A stretch of DNA of 34,152 bases, taken from the NCBI GenBank assembly GCA_029858565.1, contig JAOUEV010000038.1, positions 1 through 34,152 on the forward strand. The letters are read 5' to 3'. Positions within the stretch are counted from its first letter, which is position 1, and each line of letters begins with the position of its first letter. The stretch is from Nitrospirota bacterium (lineage in GTDB: Bacteria > Nitrospirota > UBA9217). Made by a program: the position numbers and the translations under genes. This document shows positions 1 through 21,100 of this stretch, piece after piece. The notes under the pieces were generated by a model. That model had not been told where the DNA came from. It saw only the letters and a program-made list of their open reading frames with translations, and did no database searches.

Positions 1-618
1 TCGGATCACCTCGCTGATCGTGCCGTTGCCGATGCCGAGCACGATGATCGGAAGCAGCGCATATAACCATTTCTCGCCGCCTGTTGCGTAGCCGAATGCC
101 ATGGGAAAGAGACCGAGCTTGTGGGTAAAAAAATAGATGACAATATAGCCCAGCCAGAAGACCGGAAGAGCGGAAATGACATAGGAGAGGATGGTCAGAG
201 GCCAGGTGATCCGGCCCATGCCGTACATTGCCGATCGGATGGCGATCGGCGCCGCGATCAGGATCGTGATAAGGAGCGAGCCAACGGTCAGGAGCAGGGT
301 GTTCAGGCCCGTTCGGAGCACCTCACGAAGCACCGGCATGCCCGAGCGGATGGAGGTGCCGAAATCTCCCTTGAGCATGCCAAAGGTCCAGGAGAAATAC
401 CGGCCGTACCAGGTCTTCTGGACCCCCAGCGCCTCGCGCACACCGCTCCGCGCCTCTTCGGACATTGCCTGGCCTTCGAGCAATACGCTGAAAGGATCAC
501 CCGGTGAGAGGTAAAGGATGACGAAGACCACAAAGCTCACCCCAAGGAGCAGCAGACCGGTGATGACCAGCTCGCGCGAAAGGACCAGTGCTATGGGGCG
601 GAATGCTGAAAGTTTCAT
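1..618 (-). CDS. Dipeptide/oligopeptide ABC transporter permease (DppB/OppB family), 3' end outside window
   Basis: This is an inner-membrane permease subunit of a peptide/nickel-type ABC importer. 206 codons are open from the ATG at 618 to the window edge, so the C-terminal part is missing. An N-terminal membrane segment (about residues 15-35) is followed by the family's periplasmic stretch with LSPGDPF and then YGRYFSWTFGMLKGDFGTS, which is typical of DppB/OppB. Further hydrophobic helices start near residue 105 (NTLLLTVGSLLITILIAAP) and near 140. The gene starts 9 bases after the stop of the binding-protein gene at 628, so the two are surely co-transcribed and probably translationally coupled. 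No strong Shine-Dalgarno sits right before the ATG. Substrate specificity cannot be read from this fragment. Confidence 0.9.
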   Translation of the reverse strand, partial: MKLSAFRPIALVLSRELVITGLLLLGVSFVVFVILYLSPGDPFSVLLEGQAMSEEARSGVREALGVQKTWYGRYFSWTFGMLKGDFGTSIRSGMPVLREVLRTGLNTLLLTVGSLLITILIAAPIAIRSAMYGMGRITWPLTILSYVISALPVFWLGYIVIYFFTHKLGLFPMAFGYATGGEKWLYALLPIIVLGIGNGTISEVIR

Positions 619-627
619 TGAATCGTC

Positions 628-2223
628 TTACTTCCCTTCCATGAACCACTCATCGGCAAAAGAGAAGAACTTGTACGGATGGATCGCTACGCGCCTGACC
701 TTGTCGCGGTAGGCCGCGAAGTTCGTGAGTGTCCAGAGGTAGGTGTAGGGATTCTCCTCGGCAAGGATCGCATGGAGCTTGCGGTTGATGGTACGCTTCT
801 TCTCGTGGTCCAGCGTGAGCTTGCTCTCGTTGATCAGGCCGTCAACTTCGGGGTTCGAGTAGCCGATGAAGTTGTTCTTCCAGGCCCCGATCTCGCCGGT
901 GTGGAAGAGCGACGAGATGTCAGCTGAATCGTCAAAGACCCAGGACGCGAACACGATATCGAAATCATGCTCCAGGAACACATCCTCTTTCCAGGCCTGC
1001 CACTCCTTGAACTCCACCTTGATGTCAGCACCCACGTTCTTGAGATAGTTCTTGAACGCCAGCACCACGCGCTTCACCGCCTCGCTCTCCTTCTCGATCG
1101 GCACTTTCAGCGAGAACGCGAGCCGCTTGCCGTCCTTCTGCAGGAACCCGTCGCCGGCTTTGGTGTATCCCGCTTCCTGGAGCAGGGCTGCAGCCTTCTG
1201 CGGATCGAATGCCAGCGGCTGCACATCCAGATTATAGGCCCAGCTGCCCGGAGCAAAAGGACCGGATATGATCGTTCCCCTGCCGTTGAAGAAAGAGTCG
1301 AGCATTTCCTGACGGTTCACCGCGTGCGTAAAGGCCTTGCGCACGTTCTTGTCCGCCAGGAGCGGATTGCGCATATTGTAGCCGAAGAAGGAGTAGGACA
1401 GGGCATTGTACGACTTGAGCACGAACCGCTTGTCGCCCTCGATCTCGGGGATGTCCCGCGGGTTCACGAGCACGATCATGTCGATTGCATTGAACATGAG
1501 CGCCTGGGTCATGATATTCTGGTCCGCGAAGGGTTTGGCCGAGAACTGGTTGATGTGCGCCCGTCCCTTGAAGTAGCTCTCGTTCGCCGCGAGCACGATC
1601 TCCCGCTCCGAGGTCACGTTCTTGAGCATATAAGGGCCCGTGCCGATGGGGTGCTGCACAAAAGGATCGTCGCGGGTCAGATAGTCCTTGTTCGCCGGCC
1701 CGTGCTTCGGGATGACCTTGAAGCTGAATTTCGCCAGGGCGTTCAGGATGGGCCGCTTGAGGCTGAAGCGCACCGCAGAGTCGTCAACCTTCTCCACGGA
1801 GGAGATGAACTCGTAGCGCACCTTGAGCGGCGTGATGGTCTTGGGATGCATCATGATATTGTAGGTGAAGACCACGTCGTCGGCGGTGAACGGCTTGGGC
1901 TGTTCCCCTTCCTTGGCGTGCCAGGTCACGTTCTTGCGCAGGTAGAAGGTGTAGGTCCGGCCGTCCTTCGATATCTCCCAGCGCTCGGCCAGTTCCGGGA
2001 CGATCTCCTGCTTCTCGTTGATGCCCACAAGGCCGTTGAAGATCAGCTCCGTGAGCCTGAGCGAGATCATCTCGTTGCTTGTGACCGGGTCGAGTGTGGC
2101 CGGTCTTCCGTACTCGCCGTAGCTCAGGCTGCCGCCGTCAGGCCGTCCGTCCTTCTTGGGCCCGGCATGGACCGCCGTCGCAATGACCAGGACCGCCAGC
2201 AACATCATCAGTATCCGTTTCAT
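628..2223 (-). CDS. Peptide ABC transporter substrate-binding protein (SBP_bac_5 family)
   Basis: This is an extracytoplasmic solute-binding protein of the DppA/OppA type, 531 residues, the normal length for the family. A Sec signal peptide (MKRILMMLLAVLVIATAVHA, cleavage near residue 20) has no lipobox, so the protein should be periplasmic. Family landmarks are the early SYGEYGRPATLDPVTSNE segment, LTELIFNGLVGI, PELAERWEISKDGRTYTFYL and the later HPIGTGPYMLKN. GAGGAGG is well spaced before the ATG at 2223. The gene lies directly upstream of the permease gene at 618, so the pair is the start of an importer. An 80-bp heptad-repeat hairpin separates it from the TPR gene upstream, so its expression may be partly insulated from the riboswitch-led genes. 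The ligand is probably a peptide but is not proven by sequence. Confidence 0.93.
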   Translation of the reverse strand: MKRILMMLLAVLVIATAVHAGPKKDGRPDGGSLSYGEYGRPATLDPVTSNEMISLRLTELIFNGLVGINEKQEIVPELAERWEISKDGRTYTFYLRKNVTWHAKEGEQPKPFTADDVVFTYNIMMHPKTITPLKVRYEFISSVEKVDDSAVRFSLKRPILNALAKFSFKVIPKHGPANKDYLTRDDPFVQHPIGTGPYMLKNVTSEREIVLAANESYFKGRAHINQFSAKPFADQNIMTQALMFNAIDMIVLVNPRDIPEIEGDKRFVLKSYNALSYSFFGYNMRNPLLADKNVRKAFTHAVNRQEMLDSFFNGRGTIISGPFAPGSWAYNLDVQPLAFDPQKAAALLQEAGYTKAGDGFLQKDGKRLAFSLKVPIEKESEAVKRVVLAFKNYLKNVGADIKVEFKEWQAWKEDVFLEHDFDIVFASWVFDDSADISSLFHTGEIGAWKNNFIGYSNPEVDGLINESKLTLDHEKKRTINRKLHAILAEENPYTYLWTLTNFAAYRDKVRRVAIHPYKFFSFADEWFMEGK

Positions 2224-2322: not shown

Positions 2323-3846
2323 TTAGTTTATTTTTACGTCTCCCGCGCTCTTGTGCTCCATGGAGTAGATCCCCTGGAGCGCCTCCTGCAGCTGCCGCAC
2401 CTGGGGGAACTGCTTGCTCATCTCGAAATAGATCTCCAGCGCCTCGGAGTATTTCTTGGTCCGGTAATAGGCCTCCGCAAGGTCCACGAGCATCAGCGGA
2501 TCATTGAACTCGATCTTGTTCTTGTTTCCCTTGTCGCGTCCTGTCTCCAGATAGGTCAGGGCCCGGGCATAGTCTTTCCTGCCCACGTAGTATCTGCCGA
2601 GTCCGATGTTCGCCACGGCGAACCGCTTTCCCTCGCCCCGCTCCACGGCTGATGCAGCGGTCTGCGCCGGACGGGGGCACTCGATCGAGAGCCTGCCGCA
2701 GGCGAACAGCACGTCCGCCAGGAGCTCGGGGTCGTTCGGCTGGTTGCGCGTCAGCTCGTCCCAGAGGCCGATGGCGTCGGCCTTCTTGCCTTTCTGGTAC
2801 TGCACCAGGCCCTGGCGCACCATAGCCCGGTTCTTGTACTGCGGCGGGGCCTGGGGCGAAGCGAGGAACGCTGTTGCCGCCTTTGCCGCCTGGTCCGCGC
2901 TGCCTTCCAGAACAGAGGCTTCGCTCAGATAATAGTTCGCGATGCTCCTGAGCTGCGCATCCGCCGCGGCATGTTCGAGCGAGGCCGTTGCCGCCGCAAG
3001 ATAGAACTTCGCGAGGCTCGCCAGAAGCTGCACGTCGTAGAACGAGATCACCTTGCTCCTGCCGGCTGACTCGCGGTAGGCATGGGACTTGAGATCGCCG
3101 CGCTGGAGCAGGTCCATTCCTTTGTCCATCAGTCCGGCGGCCGCGTAGACCCCCAGGCAGTTCTTCACCGCAATGATCGACGGTGCGGCGCCGCTCTTCC
3201 TGCCCGCAGCCAGGACCTCATCGCACAGGGCCGGTGCGTTCTTGTCCGCCGCGACCGCCCGGCTCCAGGCAAAGGCAAGCTCGGTCTTCACGTCCTGGTC
3301 CGAGGACTGAACGGCATTCCAGGCGTCCTGCGCCTTTTGCTTGTTTCCGGCGTGATGCTCGACCATGCCGAGCCCGATCGCGGCAAATGCCTTGTGTTTT
3401 TTCTCAGCTGTTCCGGCAAGGAACTTTTCGAGCGGAGCTGCGGCGTTCTCGGGCTTGCCGCTCTCCAGCAACGTGAGGCCGAGATAGAGATCGCTGTATT
3501 TGCTCCTGCTCGACCCTCTTTCCCGGGCAAGCCGATTGAGATAATCGGCATTCACCACGACCGATGAGTGGAACAGTCCCTGGTGCAGCTCCGCGTTCTT
3601 AAGATAGAGCATTCCCAGGGCGAGCTGGGCCGCGGACTGCTTGTTCTGAGGCAGGGATGAAAGCGTCTGCCGCAAATCCCGGGCGCCTTCTTCATAACGG
3701 TGCTTCTCATAGGCCTTCATGGCCTTCTGCACCGCGTCATCGGCAGCGTGACCGCTGCCTGCGGCGCACAGCAAGAGCATTACGCACAAGAGGCCTGTTT
3801 TTGTTACCCGCAGCTTGTTCCGCACTCCGCACTCCGCACTCCGCAT
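2323..3846 (-). CDS. Secreted TPR-repeat protein
   Basis: This is a 507-residue exported protein built almost entirely of tetratricopeptide-like helices. The chosen ATG at 3846 lies just 5 bases past the stop of the propeller gene at 3852. The frame is open further upstream, but that part overlaps the propeller gene and has no signal peptide. A Sec signal peptide follows the start (hydrophobic core GLLCVMLLLCAAGSGHA, cleavage near residue 34). TPR-like helices include YLGLTLLESGKPENAAAPLE, a stretch around GLGRYYVGRKDYARALTYLE and one around LAEAYYRTKKYSEALEIY near the C terminus. Such proteins scaffold envelope complexes; no partner is identifiable beyond its operon neighbours. An oddity is that the n-region of the signal peptide (MRSAECGVRNK) is a translated heptad repeat, so the true start could be slightly downstream or the repeat may have invaded the start. 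Confidence 0.82.
   Translation of the reverse strand: MRSAECGVRNKLRVTKTGLLCVMLLLCAAGSGHAADDAVQKAMKAYEKHRYEEGARDLRQTLSSLPQNKQSAAQLALGMLYLKNAELHQGLFHSSVVVNADYLNRLARERGSSRSKYSDLYLGLTLLESGKPENAAAPLEKFLAGTAEKKHKAFAAIGLGMVEHHAGNKQKAQDAWNAVQSSDQDVKTELAFAWSRAVAADKNAPALCDEVLAAGRKSGAAPSIIAVKNCLGVYAAAGLMDKGMDLLQRGDLKSHAYRESAGRSKVISFYDVQLLASLAKFYLAAATASLEHAAADAQLRSIANYYLSEASVLEGSADQAAKAATAFLASPQAPPQYKNRAMVRQGLVQYQKGKKADAIGLWDELTRNQPNDPELLADVLFACGRLSIECPRPAQTAASAVERGEGKRFAVANIGLGRYYVGRKDYARALTYLETGRDKGNKNKIEFNDPLMLVDLAEAYYRTKKYSEALEIYFEMSKQFPQVRQLQEALQGIYSMEHKSAGDVKIN
3821..3846. repeat. Tandem heptad repeat CGCACTC overlapping a start codon
   Basis: Three exact copies of CGCACTC (3821-3841) are followed by a partial copy ending in the complement of the ATG. 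The repeat thus encodes the first residues of the TPR protein. It belongs to the same family as the inverted heptads at 2241-2320 that lie beyond the other end of that gene. Confidence 0.85.
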
Positions 3847-3851
3847 TTCCC

Positions 3852-5042
3852 TCACTCCTTCATCTTCGCCACAAAGATCTGGTCCCACTGGTTCACCTGT
3901 GCCCGGAAAGCGATGCTCCCGTCGGGCCCGCAGGCGATATCGTGGTTCATCTTGGTCTCGGTGTGCAAGGGCCTGTCGCTCTTGTCCGCGAGGTTCACCA
4001 CGTGGATCGGATTGTATTCCAGCCGGTCGTTCTTCACGTACACGATGCGGCTGCTGTCGACCATCCACGCGGGCCCCCGCTCCACATCGGAGATCACGTC
4101 GAGCGCCGCTACCCGCTCAGCCAGCCCGTCGCCTTCCGCGGGATCGGTCCCGTCGGCATTCACCACCATGATGGACCAGATCCGGGGATCTCCCGCGGGA
4201 TTGTAGTTGCTGTAAAAGGCGATCTTCTTCCCGTCAGGCGACCAGACCGGCCGGATATCGTCATGAGACCAGGTCGTGATCGCCCTGCGGGACTCCGCGG
4301 GACGCGCCGGATCATCGATTACATAGATATTGTGGTCTTCGCTGCTCCCGGCCATGAACACGATGCGCTTCCCGTCAGGGGACCACTGGGGATAGAGAAA
4401 TTCTTTCCCTCCCTGGGTGAGCCTGGTCAGCACGCGGGTCGCGACATCGAGCAGATAGAGGTCGCCCTTTCCCGTGCGGCCCGAAACGAACACGATCCGG
4501 TCGCCCCTGGGCGACCAGTCCGCCTGGCCGTCCTTTTCCTTGTGCTGGGTCAGCCGATTGACCGCCTGGCCGCCCAGATCGCCAAGGTAGAGATCATAAT
4601 TTCCCGCGCCGCCGTTGCTCATAAAGGCGAAGCGGTACTCGTCCGGGGACCAGGTGATCCCCGTGTTGAAACTGATGTCCTCCACCACGCCGGGGAAGAA
4701 GAACTTCATCTCCCCGCCGCCGGAGGACGGAAGATAGTAGACCGTCTGGACCGGCGAAAGATCGTTGAGCAGGACGCGTATTTCCCGCTTGTCGCCGATG
4801 TTCCGCTCGAAGGTGAACAGGAAGCCGGAGCGGGACCAGGAAGGATTGCCGTCGTTCCTCCCGGTCTCGATCTCCGCGATGTTCTTTACAAAGAGCGGCA
4901 GCAGGGGCTCCGGCTTCTTCACGTCCTCGACCGCAGGGACGGACGGCGTGGGCGCGGTGACCGTCTCCTCTGCATTCAGAAGAGAGGCGCTCCCGGCAGC
5001 CAGCCCCAGCGTCATTACCATCAGAACGGTCGCTCTCAGCAC
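3852..5042 (-). CDS. TolB-like beta-propeller (PD40 repeat) protein, exported
   Basis: This is a 396-residue protein that starts with GTG at 5042, preceded by GAGGG at suitable spacing and 19 bases after the stop of the upstream lipoprotein gene. A signal peptide (LMVMTLGLAAGSASLLNA) leads into an Ala/Pro-rich linker, then a six-bladed-type TolB propeller. At least four blades carry the WSPDG-type signature: WSPDEYRFAFMSNGG, WSPRGDRIVFVSGRTGKGDL, WSPDGKRIVFMAGSSEDHNI and WSPDGKKIAFYSNYNP. It lacks the N-terminal TolB domain and is unlikely to be the Tol-Pal TolB itself, because no tol/pal genes are near. It probably acts in the periplasm as a protein-interaction platform for its lipoprotein and TPR neighbours; that role is inference. 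Confidence 0.85.
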   Translation of the reverse strand: MLRATVLMVMTLGLAAGSASLLNAEETVTAPTPSVPAVEDVKKPEPLLPLFVKNIAEIETGRNDGNPSWSRSGFLFTFERNIGDKREIRVLLNDLSPVQTVYYLPSSGGGEMKFFFPGVVEDISFNTGITWSPDEYRFAFMSNGGAGNYDLYLGDLGGQAVNRLTQHKEKDGQADWSPRGDRIVFVSGRTGKGDLYLLDVATRVLTRLTQGGKEFLYPQWSPDGKRIVFMAGSSEDHNIYVIDDPARPAESRRAITTWSHDDIRPVWSPDGKKIAFYSNYNPAGDPRIWSIMVVNADGTDPAEGDGLAERVAALDVISDVERGPAWMVDSSRIVYVKNDRLEYNPIHVVNLADKSDRPLHTETKMNHDIACGPDGSIAFRAQVNQWDQIFVAKMKE

Positions 5043-5061: not shown

Positions 5062-7632
5062 CTACATCTGCTTTTTGATCTGGTCCCAGTATTTCTGTCC
5101 TGCTTCCCTGCTCTGCTTGAAGCTGCCGTCGTTCTCCAGGGCCGCGGGAAAGAAATCGAAATACTCCTGCCAGGCCTGGTTCGCGTTGTTCAGGAGCAAT
5201 GACTTCTTCGTCAGGAGATAGAGCTTGTGATACGACAACGCCGTGTAGTAATAGGTGTCGTGGACCGCTTCGTCATAGCGCTCGGTCGGGAAGAAACGCG
5301 TGTTCTCCTTTGCCTTCTGGAGCGTCTGGATAGCCTTGGCAAAGCTCTGGGCGGAGCCGTCCCGGTCGCGCTGGACCAGCGCGTTGCCCCGCTCGTAGTA
5401 CGCATGTCCCAGGTTGGTGAAGGCCACGGAGTACTGCTTGAATATGAGCTGCTGGTTCTCGGGAAGCGAGAGCACCTTCTCGAACTCCCGGATCGCGGCG
5501 TCGTAGTCGTTCTTTTCGTCCAGGTACAGCTGCGCCAGCCGGTGGTGGGCATCGGAATAGTCCGGATGGTCCTTCTGCGTGGCCGCATAGGCCGCGATGG
5601 CGCCGTCCACGTCGTTGTTCTTCTCCGCCCGCTCGCCGATCTTGAGAAAATCCTTGTACAGGACGATCGCGCGGCCGGCGGTCCGGTCCTCGGTCTTGGT
5701 CGCGAACTCCACGACCTCCTCCCAGTCACGATAGTCGCCGCCCACGGTCAGGCGCACGGTATGGAACCCGAGCGTCACCGGCTTCCCCTCGGTCATGGGC
5801 GTTCTGCCGAGCTTCTCGCCGTCCACGAACACCTCCGCGCCCTGAGGACTGGAATCCGCCTTGAAGACCGCATTGTTCACCGTCAGGGAGTATTCCTTCA
5901 CATCGCGGCTCTTCTCGACGCGGAGCTTGTCGGATACCTGCTGGTAGCCGTGCCGATAGAGCACGAGGTCGTATTTCTTTCCGAGCCGGACCGGGACCTC
6001 GGCCTTGCCGTCGGCGTTCGTGGTGCTCACCCACTCCTCGTTCAGGTAGATGTTCACCCCTGCGAGCGGGCTCACATCAGGAGGCAGGCCGCCCTTGGTC
6101 GACAGGATGGCCACGTCCTTCCCGTCGTCATCCTCCCGCGCCGCGAGCCGGACGACCCGGTCTCCCACCGACACCTTCTCGCCTTTTTTCAGGTCATCGG
6201 CCTCGGCAAAGGAATGTGCGTCGTCGACCTTCTTGATCCTGAGCCTTCCTGCGTCGCGGTACCCCGTGACTTTGCCGGTCCCGTCGGTCTTGGGCGCCAG
6301 GAGGTTGAACTCCATGTTCTTGGCGATCTTGTAGCCGGACTTGCCCAGGTTGATGCGGTAGCGGTCGCCGTCAATGCCGACCACCGTCCCCTCGAAGGGG
6401 AACTTGGCAATGACCGCGTTTGCGATATCCTTTGCCGCTCCCGCTATATCCTTCTCACGTTTTGCACGCGCGAGCTGGCTGTGCACGATCTTGCCGCCGG
6501 AAGTGATGAACTTGACCTCGACCAGGAACCCCTGGTCGTCCTTGGCAACGCTCCCCATCACGATCATGTCCACTTTCTTCTTGAGCGGCGTTTCGCGCCA
6601 CCCCTTGGCAGTGATCTTGTCGATCTTCACCCGGGCCGCTTTCACTTCGGCATGGAGCGTTTTGGAAGGGACTTCCCTGAAGCAGGAATACTTGAACAAC
6701 TGAGCGGTCAGGGCATCCTCGGTCTGGGCCACGACCTCCTTCAGGTCCACGTTCGGCGTATTGCCGGTGACCCGATAGATGCCCGTCCGGATAGGCCGCG
6801 CCGTTGTGGGGGTGAAATACCGCTGAATGTCGATCTCCCCATCCAGGGATATCTTTGTTTTCCACGATTCAGGGATATACCCCGGCGCGCTGATCGCGAG
6901 CTGGACCTTTTTGCCCGGTTCGCCGTCGTAGGAATAGGTCACGGAACCCTTGGCGTCGGTCTTCCCTATCACGCGCTTGTCGATCGACACGGACAGGCCC
7001 GCGAGCCCGCCTGCCTGGCCGTACTCCTCCATGAGCGCGGTCACGGTCACGCGGGCGCGCTTGGACAGGATAGCCTCGATGTGTTCGCCCGGAACAAGCT
7101 CTCCGGTCTTTTTCCAGGAGCCATACCCCGGCTTCTTTACCGCAAGATCCGCGCCGCCCTTGGGCAAGGTCTGATAGGAGTACTGGAACTCGCCTTTTGC
7201 ATCGGTTTTCCCGATCTCCTTGCCCTCCGCCAGGACCGCCGCGTCCGCCACCGGCGCGCCCTTTTCCAGTGCGACAATGGTGACGAACCGCTCGGCCACG
7301 AGGTCGGCGTCAAGGACGTACTTCTCCACGATGCCTTTCTTCGGAAGTTTCATGAGAACGCTGGTCTTCCAGGGCTTGATCCGGTACCCCGGCTGCTCCT
7401 TGGTGACCGCGATCTCGACCTCCGCTCCCGGTTTCTTGGTAAGGATCTTGCCGAACATGCCGTCCTCGCCGGTCATGCCTTCCTGTACGCCATCGACGGT
7501 GACCGCGGCTTTCGCCACGGGCTGGCCATCCATCTTTGCCTTGACCTCAAGTGCCATCTTCTCGCCGCCGCAGGCAAACAGCAGGAGCGACGCCGAACCG
7601 GCAAGCACGAATGAGAGTAAACGCTTGAACAT
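5062..7632 (-). CDS. Large lipoprotein with carboxypeptidase-regulatory-like, PEGA and TPR segments
   Basis: This is an 856-residue predicted lipoprotein. The start is the ATG at 7632, six bases after AGGAGG; a TTG further upstream would place the Shine-Dalgarno inside the gene. The signal peptide ends in LLLFAC with Cys21 as the lipidated residue. About residues 25-270 contain three Ig-like carboxypeptidase-regulatory segments with the signature (G)KTDAKG. Residues 285-470 resemble the CsgG/FlgT-type accessory fold (weak). Near 505-580 lies a fourth regulatory-like domain, near 595-650 a PEGA domain (SSPQGAEVFVDGEKLGRTPM), and from about 665 to the end TPR helices (NNDVDGAIAAYAATQKDHPD and following). 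It follows the small lipoprotein gene by 48 bases. Envelope anchoring is well supported; the biochemical role is unknown. Confidence 0.88.
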   Translation of the reverse strand: MFKRLLSFVLAGSASLLLFACGGEKMALEVKAKMDGQPVAKAAVTVDGVQEGMTGEDGMFGKILTKKPGAEVEIAVTKEQPGYRIKPWKTSVLMKLPKKGIVEKYVLDADLVAERFVTIVALEKGAPVADAAVLAEGKEIGKTDAKGEFQYSYQTLPKGGADLAVKKPGYGSWKKTGELVPGEHIEAILSKRARVTVTALMEEYGQAGGLAGLSVSIDKRVIGKTDAKGSVTYSYDGEPGKKVQLAISAPGYIPESWKTKISLDGEIDIQRYFTPTTARPIRTGIYRVTGNTPNVDLKEVVAQTEDALTAQLFKYSCFREVPSKTLHAEVKAARVKIDKITAKGWRETPLKKKVDMIVMGSVAKDDQGFLVEVKFITSGGKIVHSQLARAKREKDIAGAAKDIANAVIAKFPFEGTVVGIDGDRYRINLGKSGYKIAKNMEFNLLAPKTDGTGKVTGYRDAGRLRIKKVDDAHSFAEADDLKKGEKVSVGDRVVRLAAREDDDGKDVAILSTKGGLPPDVSPLAGVNIYLNEEWVSTTNADGKAEVPVRLGKKYDLVLYRHGYQQVSDKLRVEKSRDVKEYSLTVNNAVFKADSSPQGAEVFVDGEKLGRTPMTEGKPVTLGFHTVRLTVGGDYRDWEEVVEFATKTEDRTAGRAIVLYKDFLKIGERAEKNNDVDGAIAAYAATQKDHPDYSDAHHRLAQLYLDEKNDYDAAIREFEKVLSLPENQQLIFKQYSVAFTNLGHAYYERGNALVQRDRDGSAQSFAKAIQTLQKAKENTRFFPTERYDEAVHDTYYYTALSYHKLYLLTKKSLLLNNANQAWQEYFDFFPAALENDGSFKQSREAGQKYWDQIKKQM

Positions 7633-7680
7633 ACCATTCCTCCTCAAAATTGACAGGTCCCGCGGATCAGGTGTGCCGTC

Positions 7681-8133
7681 CTACATGGTCGGCGGCTGGA
7701 TGTTCACCTCGCCGGGATTCACGATCTTGTCCTCGTCGGACCTGGATGCCTCGGTGGACTTGCGTCTGCCCTCGGAGATCTTCTTGAGCTTCAGGTCGAC
7801 CTTGGCGCCGCTGAACTTGCCGACCTCCACGGTCTGGGTCTCTGTCTGGTAGCCGATCCTGCTCGCTTCCACCTTGTAAACGCCGGCGGCGATCTTCCCT
7901 TTTTCCGACTCGAACTTGCCCTCGACATTCGCCGTCACTGCATGGGATGCCTCTTCGAGTGTCGAGGTGGTATTGATCATGTTTACCACCGTACCTTCGG
8001 GACTCTCCTTTGCCGGGGGGACCGGCTGCAGGTTGGCATCCACCAGCTGAAGCGTTCCATAGATCTTCGGCGAGCATGCGGCTAGGGAGAACAGCACTAC
8101 CAACAGTATGATGGTTCTGGACTGGAGCATCAT
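7681..8133 (-). CDS. Small lipoprotein, first gene after the c-di-GMP riboswitch
   Basis: This is a 150-residue predicted lipoprotein. The signal peptide ends with FSLAAC, so Cys20 should be lipidated. The middle part (about 70-118: VTANVEGKFESEKGKIAAGV and the following residues YKVEASRIGYQTETQTVEV) has the carboxypeptidase-regulatory/transthyretin-like pattern that also appears in the next gene. The tail is charged and polar. AGGAGG lies 6 bases before the first of two consecutive ATGs at 8133. As the leader gene behind the riboswitch it is the most directly regulated product. I do not recognise a named family. Confidence 0.85.
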   Translation of the reverse strand: MMLQSRTIILLVVLFSLAACSPKIYGTLQLVDANLQPVPPAKESPEGTVVNMINTTSTLEEASHAVTANVEGKFESEKGKIAAGVYKVEASRIGYQTETQTVEVGKFSGAKVDLKLKKISEGRRKSTEASRSDEDKIVNPGEVNIQPPTM

Positions 8134-8167: not shown

Positions 8168-8235
8168 GTTATTCAGAAAACAGAAAACCGCCAAAGCTGA
8201 TATCCTACTGTGAAGTAAAGAGGTCGCTTTGGCGG
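8168..8235 (-). terminator. Intrinsic terminator forming the expression platform of the riboswitch
   Basis: On the minus strand, CCGCCAAAGC (8235-8226) pairs perfectly with GCTTTGGCGG (8197-8188). The second arm is followed at once by TTTTCTGTTTTC. This is a 10-bp stem with a roughly 28-base loop and a U-rich tail, ending about 35 bases before the first start codon. The first arm overlaps the 3' closing side of the aptamer, the standard arrangement for ligand-controlled termination. Confidence 0.88.
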
Positions 8236-8332
8236 CTCGACTGGCATGTAAGGCCTGCCTAGATCGGCAGGTTTACGTAGCCTCGTGGCTCTGCGTCCCC
8301 GGGTTTCCCCAGGTTTGCTCTGAGCAAAGTAC
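8226..8332 (-). ncRNA. Cyclic di-GMP-I (GEMM-I) riboswitch aptamer
   Basis: Read on the minus strand, the conserved GEMM-I core is visible. GCAAACC (near 8325-8313) leads into hairpin CTGGG-GAAA-CCCGG, whose GAAA is a GNRA tetraloop as the class requires. GGGACGCAGAGCC (consensus GGACGCAAAGCC, one difference) follows at about 8303-8291. Then comes a second helix, ACCTGCC paired with GGCAGG, extended by GTAA with TTAC, and a 3' closing segment CGAGCCGCC. The class binds the second messenger c-di-GMP and controls motility, biofilm and surface genes. If the 3' side of P1 competes with the terminator arm, ligand binding would favour read-through (an ON switch); that direction is inference. Confidence 0.87.
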
Positions 8333-8368
8333 GTATGTTCCCGGACGTTGTGTCCGAAAGTGGAATAT

Positions 8369-8397
8369 ACTGTAGCATTGGCAGACCTGATTGTCAA
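8369..8397 (-). promoter_or_regulatory. Sigma-70-type promoter of the riboswitch operon
   Basis: A perfect TTGACA (8397-8392) is separated by 17 bases from TACAGT (8374-8369), a 4/6 match to TATAAT. Transcription would begin near 8362, some 30 bases before the aptamer. The left end of the decayed insertion sequence lies only about 5 bases upstream of the -35 box. Confidence 0.75.
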
Positions 8398-8401
8398 GAT
8401 G

Positions 8402-9785
8402 TGACATGGGCAGTGTCAAGCCAAAGCAGAAATGTCCTATTCTAAAGGAACAGTTGACACTGCTGGTTTTTGTCTTAAGTCAGGGTTGAAGCTTTCTCTC
8501 CAGGGGTGTATGCGACCCGGTTTCCCCCGATCCCACGTCTTGTACAGCTTGGGCGATTGTTTATGTTCTTTCTGTGGGCGAACACTGATCTTCTGGCACC
8601 TCAAACGCTGGCCGTTATGCAGAATCCTCATTGAGCCGTCTGTCCGTTCTTCCACGGTTACCTTCTTGGCCCGGAGATTGTCTTTGATCTGATAAAGTTA
8701 TTTGTCGTGCGCTATGGTAAAGTCGTTCCGCAACGCCCTTGAGCTACGAATTGACAGGATTCGATCCTGCTCCCGATAGTCTTTGAACCGACGGTGCATA
8801 TCCGTGTTCTTGGCCGGAGACACCCGATACCGCCGGTTATAATCCGGCAAGTACGTTTGCAGAAAGACATTTTCCTCGTCTTTACTCCTGACACCTGCCA
8901 GCCGCATTTCTTTTATCACCCGGTCCTGAAACGTCCCGAACAGCCGCTCCACCCGCCCTTTGGCCTGGGGGGGAATATGCATGGATCACGGTCATGCCGA
9001 GCTCCTGAAGGCTCCTTTTGAACTGGCTCATCAACTGCCGGTCTTCAAGCTGCTCCTCGATCGCCTGGTGCTGAACAGTCGATTTATAGGTCGAATGACG
9101 GTCTAAATACACGCTCCGAGGAATGCCGTACTGCTTGATATATCCTTTGAAACAGTCCATGGCCGGAAGCGTTCCCTCATAATCATAGAACCAGGCGCAC
9201 ACCTCTCCCGTAGCATCGTCCACAAATGCCATCAGTGCACACTTTGGTCCCCGGCCCTCGAACCAGTCGTGATGAGAACCGTCCAACTGGACCATGGCAC
9301 CGCGGCATGCTTTCCGTTCCCGCCACTGCCTGTAGGGCCGTTTCTTGCGCTTCCGGTACGGCAACCCTGCCTCGAGAAACCAGGTCCGCAGCGTTTCGAC
9401 GCTTACCTTGATACGATTCTTTTCAAGAAGCTTTTCACTGGCAAGGGTAGGGCCGAACTCTTGATAGCGTTCGCGGCAAACTCGATTGTCTTGAGTTTTA
9501 CTGCCTCCGGGATCTGGTTGTCGGTTTCCTGCCGCGTGCGTAGTGGCAAACTCCCGCATCCCCCTCTGTCCTGACCTGCCGAATAATCCGTTGCAGCTGC
9601 CGCAGGCATAAACCTGCCATCTGTGCGGCTTCTGCCTGCGTAATTCTCTTCTCTATCGCCTTCCGTCACAAGATGCAGCAGCTTTGCTTCCTTCATGCTC
9701 ATCGTGATAACACCTCTCCCCATCGCGCCCTCCCTTAACAGGAGGACAATACGACATTTCTGCTTGGGGAAATGCGACATTATCA
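8402..9785. mobile_element. Decayed insertion sequence, ISNCY/IS1202-like
   Basis: The two ends share an inverted 13-mer, AAGCAGAAATGTC, read inward at about 8424-8436 and, on the other strand, at about 9768-9756. Both ends carry further TGA/ATGTC-like motifs outside it. Between them lies a broken transposase. The outermost bases are approximate because the terminal repeats have diverged and I could not find a convincing target-site duplication. The left end abuts the riboswitch-operon promoter; the right end is about 70 bases from the RseC-like gene. Confidence 0.7.
8437..9702 (-). pseudogene. Transposase pseudogene (ISNCY-type, rve/DDE catalytic core)
   Basis: Joining the reading frames reconstructs a typical transposase. 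It starts MSMKEAKLLHLVTEGDRE (ATG at 9702). A helix-turn-helix follows in another frame (ITQAEAAQMAGLCLRQLQRI), then FGPTLASEKLLEKN, then the catalytic core with QLDGSHHDWFEGRGP, YLDRHSTYKS and KGRVERLFGT, the likely D-D-E triad. The coding sequence is broken by frameshifts near 9648, 9525 and 9478, by a one-base shift at the 7-G run 8967-8973, and by an in-frame TAA at 8698-8700 after AHDK. The C-terminal tail then continues to 8437. The element is therefore not autonomous now. Confidence 0.85.
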
Positions 9786-10485: not shown

Positions 10486-11241
10486 ATGCTTCCGGTCCTG
10501 AAATTCCCCCTGCTCTTTGCCGCCGGACTTTTCGCCGGGCTCATCGACTCCATTGCCGGAGGCGGCGGGCTCATAACCATTCCTGTGCTGCTCGGTATAG
10601 GCATGCCGCCCCAGACCGCGCTCGGCACCAACAAGCTTCAAGGCACTTTTGGCGCGGGCAGCGCCATGGTGCACTTTGCCCGCGCCGGCGCCGTGAACCT
10701 GAAGGAGTGCGGCGCAGGCATCCTCTGGACCGCGCTCGGCGCAGGCCTCGGCACCGCGGCCGTGCAGGGCCTTGACCCGGCGTTCCTGGGCCGGGCGATC
10801 CCGCTCCTGCTCATCGCCATCGCCCTGTTCATCCTGTTCTCGCCCAGGCTCGGAATGGAGGATGTCCGGGAACGGATGGATCAAAGAAAATTCTTTCTTC
10901 TCTTCGGGATCTCGATCGGTTTTTACGACGGCTTTTTCGGTCCTGCCACCGGCACGTTCTGGGCCATGGCCTTTGTGCTGTTCCTGGGATTCAATCTGGC
11001 CCGTGCTACCGCCTACACCAAGGTGATGAACTTCACGAGCAATCTTGTCTCGCTGGCATTCTTTTTTTCCAATGGCCTCGTATCGCTCCCCGAGGGGATA
11101 GTCATGGGGCTGGGACAGTTCGCGGGTGCCCGCTTCGGATCACGGCTCGTGATCAAAAAAGGAAGCCGCTTCATCAGGCCGGTGTTCATTACCGTGGTCA
11201 TTGCCATAAGTGTGAAGCTTCTGTGGCAGAACATAAGGTGA
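10486..11241 (+). CDS. TauE/SafE family membrane transporter
   Basis: This is a 251-residue polytopic inner-membrane protein of the TauE/SafE (DUF81) family. Members export or import sulfite, sulfoacetate or other anions. The two family half-motifs are clear: GLIDSIAGGGGLITIPVLLG with ALGTNKLQGTFG in the N-terminal half, and SIGFYDGFFGPATGTFW followed by KVMNFTSN in the C-terminal half. About seven or eight hydrophobic helices are present. The length is typical. It is the only confident plus-strand protein gene in the window. It stands alone, divergent from the RseC-like gene, so the substrate is not indicated by context. Confidence 0.93.
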   Translation: MLPVLKFPLLFAAGLFAGLIDSIAGGGGLITIPVLLGIGMPPQTALGTNKLQGTFGAGSAMVHFARAGAVNLKECGAGILWTALGAGLGTAAVQGLDPAFLGRAIPLLLIAIALFILFSPRLGMEDVRERMDQRKFFLLFGISIGFYDGFFGPATGTFWAMAFVLFLGFNLARATAYTKVMNFTSNLVSLAFFFSNGLVSLPEGIVMGLGQFAGARFGSRLVIKKGSRFIRPVFITVVIAISVKLLWQNIR

Positions 11242-15112: not shown

Positions 15113-18100
15113 CTATTCGCTCAATTCAAACCATTTCCGTCCCCAGACTTTAAGAAGTTCATCGAGCTGAAGCCGGATCCGCCATTTAGCCGGTGTTGAT
15201 TTTTTCACCTCATCGATAGCGTTGAGGATCGCGATGATGTTCTGTTCCGCTGTCTTGCGGTCACCGGCTGATTCATTCACCGAGCGGAGATCATCCAAGG
15301 CTTTGAAAATCGCCAGGGCATCTTCCTTGCCTGCTGCTGTCGTCGTGTTCAGATCGTATAGAACGTCGCGCAGCAGCGTTCCGGAGCTCTTCTCTACCTT
15401 GACCATAAGATCGAGCCGATCGTAGAAGCGATACTCGCCTCCGTTCCGGTACCATGCCTCCGTCCGCGTGAGATAATCGGCCGCTCTGTCGTCTACCCTG
15501 AGGGAATAGCGGAAGGTCCCTGTTTCCGACGCCTGGAGGGACTTCTCCCATGTCAGGATGTCATCGATCAGCGGCGTGGCCGGCCGGATCGCGTCAACGG
15601 AAACGCCCATGGGCAGAAATTCGCGTATCTGTATATCCACAGGCTCCGTTGAATTGTTCACGCTGATCCTGATCGGCACGATCCCCAACGGCCGCGGATA
15701 GAATTCAGCAGGACGCACATAATTGATGCTGTTGATCAGGAGCGCCGCTGCCTTTGCCTGGTCCGGGGATTCCGGCAGATTGAACGTATAGAGAAGCACC
15801 TTTCCGCGGCCGTACTCCCGTGCCACAATCGAAGGATATGCCGTCTGTTTGTCCAGGACCGTGGCGAAGACCGTTGCATTCGGGTCAATAACCTCAGCGA
15901 CAACATGCTTGCCGCTGCTTTCGAGGGCCGATTCGGTGCTGAGGGGACTGTCGAGCAGGGAAACGGTCAGATTCTCGGCAGTCGTCCTTCCCGTGAATTT
16001 GACGCCGTACAATTCATCAAGCACCGGGTCCACCTCATGACGCGCCTTGATGAAGATCAGCCCGTCGCCGTAATGCACCGCATCCCTGATTTCCCGGCCG
16101 ACGAACGGTTCCTTCACGTCGACGAGCATGTAGGTGTTGTAGCGGCCTGAGCGATATTTCATCGCAAAATCGTCTTCGTCCTTTGCGATGCTGTAATTGA
16201 TGCCTGCTGATGACAAAAGATTGCTAAGGACATCCAGGGAAGAGAGCTCTCTCCTATCCCGACCTTCGTCATCACGATTATCTTCTCGTTTACATGCTGC
16301 ATCCTTCTTAATATCGGCACACCCTTTATTTTCCCTGTCATCATCGTCATGGCCGCCACGCTCATCTTCGCAGTCCGAATCATCCCCTTTTTCCCGCCCG
16401 TCAAACCAAACAAGAACAACGGGATCGGCCGCGATCTTTTTCGAAATTGTCATGGTGACCAAGTTAACAGTAATTGCCTGTTCAGTTTCTTCGTTCTGGA
16501 CATTATCGACGGATTTGAACAACACTGTATGCACACCCGACAGGCCATCCTTCAGGCTGAAGCTGCCGGTGTACGTCTGCCACGCGCCGTCATCAATGCG
16601 ATAGCTTGTCACACGAAGGCCGGACAGGTTGTCAGCGGCTGACAGGGTAAAGAATATCGACGGCGAAACCGCGTTCACCTGGCCTTCCAGCAGCGGCTCG
16701 GTCGCGGAAATGGTGGTAACCGGCGGCGTTGCGTCGACGGTAAGGACAAAAGACCCGTCCTTTTCGGTGTTTTCGACATTGTCAATGCTCCGATAACCGA
16801 TCGAGTGGGTCCCCTCCGTGGCAAGAAGGACTGGTCCTGCATAGCGCTCCCAGGACTTTTCATCGATTCGATATTCACTCCGGGCCACGCCGGAGGATGC
16901 ATCCGTGGCCTCAAAGATGATCTCGCTTCCGCCGGCAACGAACAGCTTTCCGTCAGCGGCACTGTACTCCGAACCGCTCACTGCCGCGGTCGTCTTCGGC
17001 GCGGTGTTATCGATGATCAAGGCAAGAGACTTGTCCGCCTCCAGGTTTGTTACCTGGTCCCGGCTCCGGTAGCTGATGGTATGAGTGCCTTCCGTGCTAA
17101 CCGTGAAGGCGGAATAGCGCGACCAGGCGCCGTTGTCGATGCGGTATTCCGTCAGCGCAACGCCGGACAGGTCGTCGGTTGCCGATACCGTGACCACGCT
17201 GGAACTCGATCCGTACAGGCTTCCGTCGCCTGCGGTATATTTCGGCGTACCAACGGAAAGCTCTGAGAGCGGAGGCATGTTGTCGATAATTACCGCTTCC
17301 GGTCCGATGGTTGCCCCATTGCCGAGACGATCCGATGCCTGCGCAACAATCCTGTGGCTCCCCGGCTCGCTGATCTTGAACGCACCGGCATACTCCTGCC
17401 ACGCGCCATCGTCGATGCGATAGCTAACCGCTGCGACACCGCTTCCTGCATCGGTCGCCGTGATGGTAACCGGCGAGGAGTTCTTCGCGTAGCGTGTCCC
17501 GTCCGCGGCAATAAAGACGGGCTCACCGACAACCAACTGAATCGCCGGTGCGGCAGCATCGACAACGAGACTAAGCACTCGCTCCTGCTCCAGGTTGCCG
17601 ATATTGTCCCTGCTCCGGTAACCAAGGGTGTGGGTGCCTTCGGACGATAGCGTAAATGGTGATGTGTAGGCAACATACTGGCCGCTGTCGAGCCGGTATT
17701 CCGTTCCAGCGACCCCGGAAATATCGTCGATAGCGCTTAGCGTAATTGCCGTGCTCGGCGCGAGGAACACGCTGCCGCCGGCCTCATGCTTCGGCGTGCC
17801 GATGATCGCCGTTGTTACCGGCGGCGTGGAATCCATCTGGACTTCAAAAGCCACGAGCGGCGTTGTTGCGGAATTGCCTGCCTTGTCAAATGCGCGGAAC
17901 GCAATCGCATGGGCGCCGTTGTCCGTTATTCCCGGCTCCCAGGTCGCAGCAAATTTCCCCCGGATCGGATCAGCCGGCGGGAGAAGTCTCCAGACGCCGC
18001 TGTCGATCCGGTACTCGACCCGGTCGATTCCCGTCCCGCTGTCGGATGCAGCGGCCTCGATTGCCACGGTCCCGCGATAGGAGCCGTTCGCAGCAGGCAA

Positions 18101-21100
18101 GACCGCGGTGACAACAGGCGCGATCATGTCCTTGACTGCAAAAGACGCGCTCGCCAGAGTTCCGTTCCCCTCTGGCCCGGTTCTCTGCAAAAGAACGGTG
18201 TAGGACTTGAAATCCAGGCCAGCCGTGGAAACGATCCATGTCCCGCTCCGCTCGGCCGATCTCGGAAGGTCTGCGGTTTGTTCGTGCGTGCGCAGGACCG
18301 CATTCGTCTCCGGATCCACCAAGACAAGCCTCGCGGCCACACCCGACGCATCCGCATTGCCGCTGTTCAAAAGGCTGTAGGTTATCGTTGCGTCGCTGCC
18401 AAAGGCCGTGACCGGCTGGGCTGTTTTGATCGATCCCGTGATCACCGGCACCGGCCGGATGCCGAAAGATGCGGATGCCGCGGCTTCCGGCTGGCCGTCC
18501 TGAAACACCTGCACCGAGACCGAATAGGTTCCCGCAGGGAAGGTTGACGTGTTCCAGGCAGCGCTGAAGGAGACAGCGGTCCCGGGAAGTATATTTGATG
18601 CATTATGTTCCGTCGTGGACAGCGCCGTGCCGTGAGCATCAAGGTAGTTCACCACGGCCCGGATCGCGGAAATAATGAAGTTCTTGCCGCTGTTCCTGAT
18701 GGTCACCGCCCCGGTCACGGCTTCCGCCGGGCCATACTCTGCCTTGTTCGTAGTGACCGAAGCCTGAATGTTCACATCCGGCAGGATGGTGAAATCAGCT
18801 GAGCTGCTCGCCAGGACAACGGTACCTTCCTTCAGCTCCGCCTTCACCCGATACCGGCCTGCAAGCGTTGTGCCGGTATTCCAGGCATACCCTCGCCTGA
18901 GCGGTTCGGCATATCCGACGGAGACGCTTTCCGCGGTGAACAGGACCACCGGGTACCCGTCGGCGTCCTCGATCCGCGTCTCGAGCGCGGCGGTCGTCGG
19001 ACGGCCGCTGTTCCAAAGCGATGCGTTGATCGCTACCGGCGAATCGCTCGCATAACGCAACGAATCCGCGCCCACTTCCAGTGCCACTCCCTCGCGATCT
19101 GTCACGGTGAAATCATGGATTGCCACATTGTTTGACTCGTCGCGTTCAGCGATCAGATCGTCAGCGTCCACGACGACGACAAGTCTGTTCTGTCCTGCTT
19201 TGCCGGAACTGTCCCACGGAACGTTCACCCACTCTTCCGAACCCGGCGCTATTTCGGGGATGAGCATCGAGAGCAGATGTTCAAGATTTCCGGCTCCATT
19301 CCACAGATACAAATCAACACTCACATCCTCTATCGGCGAACCGGACGGATTGCGGACAGGGACGGAGACCGCGACCTGCTCGCCCGCGATCGAGGCCGCC
19401 GGAAGAAGGAGAATGTCTTCGTCGACGACAGCGGCGTCGGGCGTCAAGGCGGCATCAAAGTTTATCGCGACGGAGGCGGATCGGTCGCTTTCATTCCCTG
19501 CTTTATCGGCGCAGGCGGCGTTGAACTCGTTCGATCCGTCGAGAAGAGCAACGCTTGCGAATTCGAACGACCCCGCGAGATCGACCAGTTTCACCGTCCT
19601 GGAAATCACCGCCAGGATCGTGCCATTCGCGGACGTCTCGATCTTCCCGATCGAAGACAGCGGCCCGAGCAGATCGCGGGCCGTTCTCGAAGCCGCCAGG
19701 CCTGCAATCCTGAGGAAATAGCCGCCCTTGGCAGAGTTATAGACCATATACAGAAGTTCATCGCCCGACGCGGACCATGAGGGCCGAAACGCGTTGTCGG
19801 CAATGCCTGCCGAGGCGGAGGCGCCGGTCGACAGATCGTAGATCATCACTTCGCTCGAGCCGCTGGCATATGACGTATACGTGAGCCGCTTGCCGTCGGG
19901 CGACCAGGTGAAAGAATCCCATCCGCCGTCGGGATCAATCGACTTCGATTGCATGGTCTCGACGTTCAGCAGCTGCAGTCCAGCCCACCGGACATAGGCC
20001 AGATATTTCCCGTCCGGTGAAATCCGATCGTCGTAAAGATCGGAAGCGGAGAGCAGGGATTTCAAACTTCCCGTTGTCAGGTCCTTCAGCATGACCGACA
20101 TGGTGTTCCCCGCAACGCTCAGCACGCAGACTTTCGCACCGTCCGCTGTCCACTGCGCGCCATATTCCTGCCTCGACGCGCCGGTGTTGACCGGCGCCGC
20201 GTCGCGACTATCCAGAGGCATGATCGCGATCCGTTCGTTTCCTGAATAACCCTCGTAGAACGAGTAGGCAATCTGCGTTCCATCGGGCGACCAGACGGGA
20301 TGGAACGCCCCTTCAATCGCCCGTTCTTCCGCTCCCGTCGCCAGCGTCTTGAACCAGAGAGCGCCGTCTTTTGCGTAGGCGAGGATCGCTCCGTCCGGAG
20401 AGAGCGCGGGAGACTCATCGATCCCCTCCAGCGCATAGGAGGTAACCTCGTCGCTGGGAAGCGCCGGGGTTTCGCCCGCCGGGCTCCCGTTCCGGTAGAG
20501 ATGCACGGTCGTACCGGGCTCTCCGATCCCGGTGATCGCGATCCTGGCGCGCGATGCCTGCGCCGGCGCGCCGGGCCGTGCCGGGAAAAAGATCCCGGGG
20601 GTGGACGGAGCTATCGTATCGACGACAACAGCGGAAGCTTCGTCCGAATAGGGGCTTTCATTGCCGACCCCGTCAACCGACGTGACAACGTAGAAATATT
20701 CCACGCCGTTCGTCAGACCGGAGTCCTCGTAGAGGGTGCTCGTCAGCTCCGCCCTATTCACCCGCTCGTAGGGGCCGCCTGTCTGCAAACCACGATAGAG
20801 CGCGTATTTCGCCTGCGGTGTAGGATTCCACTCGATCCTGAGGCTCCCCCCCTCGGGGAGCGACTGAATATGGAGACCCGCGGGCGCGTCAGGCAGCGGA
20901 ACAGCAACGGTGGCCGTCGCCTCTTCGGACGGCGCGCTTTCGTTGTTCTTCGCGTCAACCGCGGTTATCCGGTACCGATAGTTTCCGTTGGCAAGATCGG
21001 TGTCCCTATAGGTCCGGTCGGTTGCAGGCGTCGCACCTAGCAGGATCCATCCCGACGGGCCGCTCCTGAACACGCGGTACGTCGCGACGTCGGGCTCCGT

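Follow-up and report, generated by a model that had tools for sequence, protein, structure and literature searches.

The window analysed here, a stretch of 34,152 nucleotides that constitutes an entire contig of a Nitrospirota genome (G000; 3.92 Mb in 144 contigs), contains a genuine, well-formed riboswitch of the known GEMM-I class, belonging to a subtype with adenine at nucleotide 20 (A20). The reading that we consider rather probable is that this RNA would function as an ON switch with 3',3'-cGAMP as its most likely ligand and an envelope and peptide-uptake operon as its output. The element, all parts of which lie on the minus strand, comprises the following features:

8369–8397, minus strand: promoter with TTGACA (8397–8392), a 17-nt spacer and an extended -10 TACAGT (8374–8369)
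8227–8329, minus strand: GEMM-I aptamer of the A20 subtype, 103 nt, assigned by RF01051 (54.8 bits) and base-pair counts
within 8227–8329, minus strand: aptamer helices P1 (CUUU/AAAG), P2 with a GAAA cap, and P3
8319, minus strand: nucleotide 20, an A, read in the aptamer sequence
8188–8235, minus strand: intrinsic terminator hairpin with 10 perfect pairs and a 28-nt loop
8174–8187, minus strand: U-rich terminator tail, TTTTCTGTTTTCTG

A cmscan search against Rfam revealed a full-length match to RF01051 at 8329–8228 (minus strand) with 54.8 bits versus a gathering score of 35, which was the sole family above its gathering score in the whole window. The assignment to the c-di-GMP-I/GEMM-I class made in the earlier note from the letters of the DNA thus passed the test, and the conserved core, the GNRA-capped helix and the second helix that it described are all present. 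Three RF01051 matches were found in the source genome, including the window copy. The cytosine that we take to be the ligand-pairing equivalent of Vc2 C92 was placed at 8231 (minus strand) by alignment. Folding of the 170-nt leader gave -68.2 kcal/mol compared to -46.0 kcal/mol in shuffles (z = -5.05, none of 200 shuffles as good), while the 110-nt aptamer alone was less striking (z = -2.23, equalled by 4 of 200 shuffles) and has as its lowest-energy structure a rival fold that lacks P1 and P3. At the 5' end of the aptamer, UUUGCUCAGAGCAAA (8328–8314, minus strand) is a palindrome around one base that is kept in most listed copies of the A20 subtype, and a hairpin formed from it could act as a competitor of P1.

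In an alignment of 23 RNAs of the window subtype, for which the Rfam pairs and P1 (CUUU/AAAG) were counted, 90.9% of 506 cells were paired, compared to 27–49% with partners slid. Cells changed on both sides numbered 46 versus 16.4 in shuffles, and the covariation score reached 0.307 versus 0.129 in shuffles and a maximum of 0.117 in the slid controls. When changes on both sides were counted per pair, the result stayed at shuffle level (8 versus 6.7; 137/500), so that four of five whole-structure measures lay above nearly all shuffles and one did not. One pair of P1 varies consistently (UA in 17, UG in 4 and CG in 2 sequences), whereas the Rfam P3 pair 40–142 is formed in none of the 23 sequences and pair 43–139 in nine. 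Overall, the P1, P2 and P3 helices are backed by compensatory changes. Two of these results, the aptamer fold that is not the minimum-energy one and the covariation measure at shuffle level, count against our preferred explanation. The former would also be expected of a decayed riboswitch whose terminator provides mere constitutive attenuation, yet the core, the terminator overlap and the gene order are conserved in several genera of the window's family (f1) and likewise in two MAGs labelled Geobacteraceae and Desulfuromonadales, which makes decay very improbable.

The promoter, which the earlier note had correctly recognised, agrees with the consensus at 10 of 12 positions and has TG preceding its -10. 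A second promoter match was located at 8419–8390, and these two matches compare with 0.4 in shuffles. The layout of TTGACA, 17–18 nt and TACA(G/T)T is conserved in seven of nine operon copies examined, with loci L036 and L048 as the exceptions. The perfect 10-bp terminator, likewise announced beforehand as overlapping the aptamer, is built from the arms CCGCCAAAGC (8235–8226) and GCUUUGGCGG (8197–8188), and its 5' arm overlaps the 3' end of the aptamer and P1. A generic terminator scan listed no terminator, its loop limit being 8 versus the 28-nt loop here. In the related RNAs, an exact terminator arm of 6–13 bp overlapping the 3' edge of the aptamer was found in 23 of 23 cases, a count that has no shuffle control and in which the shortest arms (6 and 7 bp) could be due to chance. 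The tails of these 23 terminators contain five to eight T in the first eight bases.

Aptamer and terminator are mutually exclusive via the shared strand. The cost of enforcing the aptamer pairs in the window RNA rises from 3.3 kcal/mol at the point where the aptamer has just been completed to 9.2 kcal/mol with the loop made and 20.7 kcal/mol with the terminator arm made; therefore, the choice between the two folds has to be taken co-transcriptionally, and a bound ligand should promote read-through. Since the 3' edge of the aptamer doubles as the 5' arm of the terminator, the ligand should turn transcription on. Without ligand, CCGCCAAAGC would pair with GCUUUGGCGG and RNA polymerase would stop in the U-tract, while a ligand bound during transcription would allow P1 (CUUU/AAAG) and P3 to keep the CCGCCAAAGC strand, so that the operon would be read. 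The same arrangement, with mutually exclusive aptamer and terminator in an ON switch, is described for the pilM riboswitch of Geobacter metallireducens (PMC9262584). From the sequence and the fold energies we infer with high confidence that the element is a transcriptional ON switch.

The ligand is a separate question, for which nucleotide 20 and the surrounding junction have to be considered together. In Geobacter, nucleotide 20 is reported to separate c-di-GMP from cGAMP riboswitches; A20 confers cGAMP selectivity on Gmet_0970, and an A20G exchange shifts it to c-di-GMP (PMC6456294). Reviews describe a G20A GEMM-I mutant as binding cGAMP (PMC7288161) and list G20A GEMM-I as a c-AMP-GMP sensor (PMC11352751). 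The window RNA has A at this position (8319), as is typical of cGAMP riboswitches (GEMM-Ib), and not the G of c-di-GMP-sensing GEMM-I. The suggestion in the earlier note that c-di-GMP is the ligand is therefore not supported by this base, which goes with cGAMP in Gmet_0970 (PMC6456294). Across all loci examined, A20 was found in 39 of 39 distinct copies of the subtype, which was defined by fixed flanks with position 20 left free, and both other GEMM-I of the window genome carry G20. By simple counting, the 72 GEMM-I matches in f1 have 44 G, 27 A and 1 T at position 20, with two A20 subtypes standing out, namely GATAAT[A]C and the window subtype CTTTGCTCAG[A]GC. The former (nine matches in the f1 genomes G001, G004, G006 and G010) agrees with the contacts given for 4YAZ, a Geobacter structure (PMC6274999, PMC7288161). 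The window RNA lacks this Geobacter-type junction (G8 A9 A11 A12 U13 A14 C15 in 4YAZ numbering) and differs from it at A9, A11, U13 and C15 when counted back from A14. These four letters mean that selectivity is not readable from one base. A related RNA in genome G031 (L032) combines a similar P1 with another junction and G20. A further subtype, CTTCTA.CA, was observed on a single contig of genome G028 (C31), where three GEMM-I (L323, L325, L326) lie approximately 4–6 kb apart, two with A20 and one with G20.

Comparison with the Geobacter GEMM-Ib riboswitches (pilM/Gmet_0970, pgcA/GSU1761; 4YAZ) thus reveals agreement in RF01051 membership, A20, a 3' strand shared with the terminator and the predicted ON switch; the wider subtype also has pilM and cytochromes in its range of targets. 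In contrast, the window has GCUCAG[A]G at the junction where the Geobacter type has GAUAAU[A]C, its P1 consists of CUUU/AAAG, f1 as the host family yielded no canonical cGAMP-making enzyme (see below), and the operon type is absent from the Geobacter target list consulted (PMC6456294). The core and junction letters of the window RNA match those of Vc2 from Vibrio cholerae apart from nucleotide 20, which makes the engineered G20A Vc2 the closest laboratory analogue of the window RNA, although the latter has a natural A20, a terminator ON platform and another P1.

Such a combination of A20 with a Vc2-like junction might also produce a dual sensor with similar affinity for cGAMP and c-di-GMP, so that the operon would answer to either. 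For the Geobacter OmcST riboswitch, sensing of both dinucleotides has been reported (PMC6456294), engineered G20A GEMM-I accepts cGAMP (PMC11352751, PMC7288161), and f1 combines many GGDEF genes with a merely putative cGAMP source. As G20 and A20 riboswitches occur side by side, suggesting that the cell distinguishes the two signals, we regard this alternative as quite unlikely. Our preferred ligand is cGAMP, which from nucleotide 20 and its conservation appears reasonably probable as the physiological ligand, possibly with some cross-reaction with c-di-GMP. Counted against it are the 4YAZ junction mismatches, the G20 of L032 and the results on cGAMP sources in f1.

The distribution of the subtype was analysed in 61 genomes, comprising 14 of f1 and 47 others of the phylum. 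RF01051 was matched at E ≤ 0.001 in 39 of the 61 genomes and above the cut-off in 35. The subtype occurs in nine of the 14 f1 genomes (G000, G001, G002, G003, G006, G007, G009, G010 and G012) and in 14 of the 47 others, the latter spread across four families (f3, f6, f8, f14) and not representing independent events; its absence is judged from RF01051 matches at E ≤ 0.001 under strict filters. Five weak GEMM matches outside f1 were left out as separate regions, one of which, in L018, was seen, and two matches in G060 were excluded as out of register at position 20. The 24 subtype loci outside f1 but within the same phylum precede pilM in three cases and cytochromes in four. For pilM, Pfam PilM_2 was matched in L023 and L348, while L028 was assigned by its near-identical start. 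The cytochrome-locus frames examined contain 17 (L322), 19 (L336), 6 (L012) and 3 (L361) CxxCH motifs; the cytochrome is the second gene in L322, L336 and L012, and Pfam confirms L322, L336 and L361. Among the remaining 17 loci, two are too short for a gene and 15 precede fn3/other surface-type or family-less proteins, several of them judged from the ORF start alone. For comparison, the reported targets of Geobacter cGAMP riboswitches are pilMNOP, OmcAHG, PgcA and OmcST (PMC6456294).

If the A20 subtype senses cGAMP, a synthase would be expected alongside it. The cGAMP-making GGDEF enzymes, termed Hypr, have Ser/Thr plus GGDE[F/Y] as their signature. One representative is encoded in a Geobacteraceae-labelled MAG (G061), with Ser and GGDEY and a best PDB match to 6d9m, the GacA of G. 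metallireducens (231 bits versus 141.5 for PleD). Outside f1, the best GGDEF match to Hypr-type enzymes carries Ser and GGDE[F/Y] in 24 of 47 genomes, absence in the other 23 being judged from the top one or two GGDEF domains of each genome and the searches being based on two different queries (6 genomes with one, 41 with the other). Hypr enzymes were present in 12 of the 14 genomes with the subtype versus 12 of 33 without it (Fisher p = 0.0034, uncorrected for phylogeny), and in genomes at least 85% complete in 10 of 10 versus 10 of 30 (p = 0.0004, likewise uncorrected). The two subtype genomes without Hypr, G043 and G047, are 77% and 65% complete.

The window's own family is the exception. 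In the window genome, the specificity residue is covered by 27 of 31 GGDEF matches, and no canonical Hypr enzyme was found in this set, nor among the 17 of 30 matches read in G006 or the top-scoring matches of each of the 14 f1 genomes. Ser occurs in three matches of the window genome, in two of them together with GGEEF and in the third with GGDDF. A CD-NTase was rejected as an alternative cGAMP source, as SMODS, the CD-NTase family searched, was found in none of the 14 f1 genomes. A full-length search for a GacA-like enzyme in f1 gave no outlier (best 146 bits). Two further candidates were discarded, namely a HAMP-type Ser/GGDDF protein (contig C9; L086, L156), whose motif is wrong and whose weak PDB hits are not led by 6d9m, and a GGDEM frame on contig C71 (L087), whose upstream part is broken by stops. 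That no canonical Hypr enzyme was found in f1 is what weighs most heavily against cGAMP as the ligand. It is consistent with a normal c-di-GMP riboswitch whose A20 is incidental and in which c-di-GMP from one of the many diguanylate cyclases turns the operon on, as are the predominance of Asp at the specificity position where covered among the 31 GGDEF matches of the window genome, the lack of SMODS and the class name in Rfam. The Vc2-like junction points in the same direction. Such a reading leaves the 39 of 39 copies with A20 unexplained, while f1 genomes also keep G20 GEMM-I; outside f1, the occurrence of the subtype follows that of Hypr enzymes and its targets are in part of the Geobacter cGAMP type, and A20 goes with cGAMP in Gmet_0970 (PMC6456294). 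We consider it unlikely and retain cGAMP as the favoured ligand.

A potential source in f1 is a GAF-GGDEF family with Ser and GGEEF, found in 18 of 18 closest matches (at least 59% identity; L154, L155, L362–L374, L376–L380) from 13 of the 14 genomes; the window genome contributes proteins from C85 and C89, and the lower matches read have Asp. The only intact-looking Ser344 GGDEF in f1 bears GGEEF. The exception, G003, has the subtype, and neither a Hypr nor a Ser/GGEEF enzyme was found in it. Placement of the Ser/GGEEF proteins as a branch within the Hypr clade was rejected, since seven sequences form their own clade (support 0.999); the Hypr clade of the GGDEF tree comprises 27 Ser and 2 Asp members with a support of only 0.57. 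A close relative of GacA (GSU1658) exists in G061, and Ser/GGDE[F/Y] enzymes are frequent outside f1; in f1 itself no such enzyme was found, and Ser/GGEEF GAF-GGDEF proteins occur in its place. An engineered Ser/GGEEF GacA is reported as inactive, and natural Ser/Thr enzymes are reported with GGDE[F/Y] only (PMC6456294); the published 'Goldilocks' model calls Ser/GGEEF inactive. Either the Ser/GGEEF proteins are exceptions that make cGAMP, or they are inactive, in which case the riboswitches of f1 would respond to c-di-GMP or to cGAMP of different origin. The conserved family tests the published rule on substrate choice.

The genes following the riboswitch on the minus strand correspond to the lipoproteins, propeller, TPR protein and peptide importer outlined in the earlier note:

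7681–8133, minus strand: gene 1, 150-aa lipoprotein with a carboxypeptidase-regulatory-like domain (below the Pfam cut-off)
5062–7647, minus strand: gene 2, lipoprotein of at most 861 aa with beta-sandwich and PEGA domains, a FlgT-like middle and C-terminal TPR
3852–5042, minus strand: gene 3, 396-aa PD40/TolB-like beta-propeller
2323–3846, minus strand: gene 4, TPR protein with a signal-like start near 3846 (open frame reaching 4068)
628–2223, minus strand: gene 5, substrate-binding protein of the SBP_bac_5 family (DppA/OppA type)
1–618, minus strand: gene 6, DppB-type permease, cut by the contig end

Gene 1 starts at 8133 with AGGAGGG just 5' of the start, and the likely start of gene 2 is an ATG near 7632. 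The AlphaFold2 model of the gene 2 product (P0002; mean pLDDT 86, pTM 0.52) displays sandwich repeats, the FlgT-like part and the TPR end and is to be read at domain level only; its structure matches were likewise domain-level with low TM-scores and gave no function. The gene 5 product (P0005) lies below every NCBIfam cut-off listed. Beyond gene 5, the related locus L393 continues with two permeases and two oligopeptide-type ATPases, and L392 has two such ATPases with permeases judged by position and length only. The operon thus resembles Dpp/Opp peptide importers in having SBP_bac_5, two permeases and two ATPases in order, but differs from them in four preceding envelope genes of unknown role. 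We infer that its products are anchored in the envelope and take up peptides or some other small ligand. Extracellular cytochromes were rejected as operon members, as frames of the window and 27 related loci (those of 150 aa or more, or with a match to a window protein) contained no CxxCH; a direct role of the window operon in electron transfer is therefore not supported.

With a simple ORF picker, the full order of lipoprotein, PEGA/TPR lipoprotein, PD40 propeller, TPR protein and SBP_bac_5 was recovered in 10 of the 27 related loci; in the others the locus was cut, a different frame was picked for at least one gene, or a gene was not seen. The subtype riboswitch lies 727–988 bases before gene 2 in eight of the 27 loci, 24 of which were examined with at least 1.1 kb of upstream DNA. 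These eight comprise six Nitrospirae/Nitrospiria MAGs, one Geobacteraceae-labelled and one Desulfuromonadales-labelled MAG, the six being the f1 genomes G001, G002, G006, G009, G010 and G012 and hence not independent of the f1 counts. Of the eight, only L035 fell below the RF01051 cut-off. No such riboswitch was found in the upstream DNA examined of the Rokubacteria, Nitrosomonadales, Gallionellales and Desulfobacterales loci and of the Nitrospiria locus L053, and the operon therefore appears more widespread than its riboswitch.

In the open-access literature, nothing was found that joins cGAMP, riboswitch and Nitrospirota; among the matches listed, none of the papers on GEMM-I, cGAMP or Hypr riboswitches mentions Nitrospirae, and Nitrospira was not found in those on GEMM riboswitches with pilM and cytochromes. 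The earlier note had proposed an undescribed c-di-GMP regulon, of which 'undescribed' stands, while c-di-GMP is better replaced by an A20 (cGAMP-type) GEMM-I riboswitch regulon. As a tentative and still doubtful extension, Nitrospirota may possess a cGAMP network of their own alongside the one known from Geobacter, in which A20 GEMM-I would switch on pilM, cytochromes and the f1 peptide-import/envelope operon, with cGAMP in f1 supplied by the natural Ser/GGEEF GAF-GGDEF enzymes. If true, riboswitch-based cGAMP signalling, described in Geobacter, would extend to another phylum, with two target classes in common and one new, peptide uptake. It would also be a warning that labelling an RF01051 match as 'c-di-GMP riboswitch' before nucleotide 20 has been read can name the wrong messenger.

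Elsewhere in the window, a single open frame of 5,864 aa (15113–32707, minus strand) encodes a giant surface or secreted protein with CARDB, FlgD_ig, Big_13, Big_7, fn3, F5/8-type-C, PD40 and squalene-cyclase-like domains; no Rfam riboswitch was found upstream of it within the window, and no repeats of at least 60 bases within the gene. A TauE/SafE-type exporter gene is located at 10486–11241 (plus strand), and a frame at 8882–9559 (minus strand), approximately 0.5 kb upstream of the riboswitch promoter, has a weak rve (integrase-core) match below the Pfam cut-off and is probably a transposase piece.
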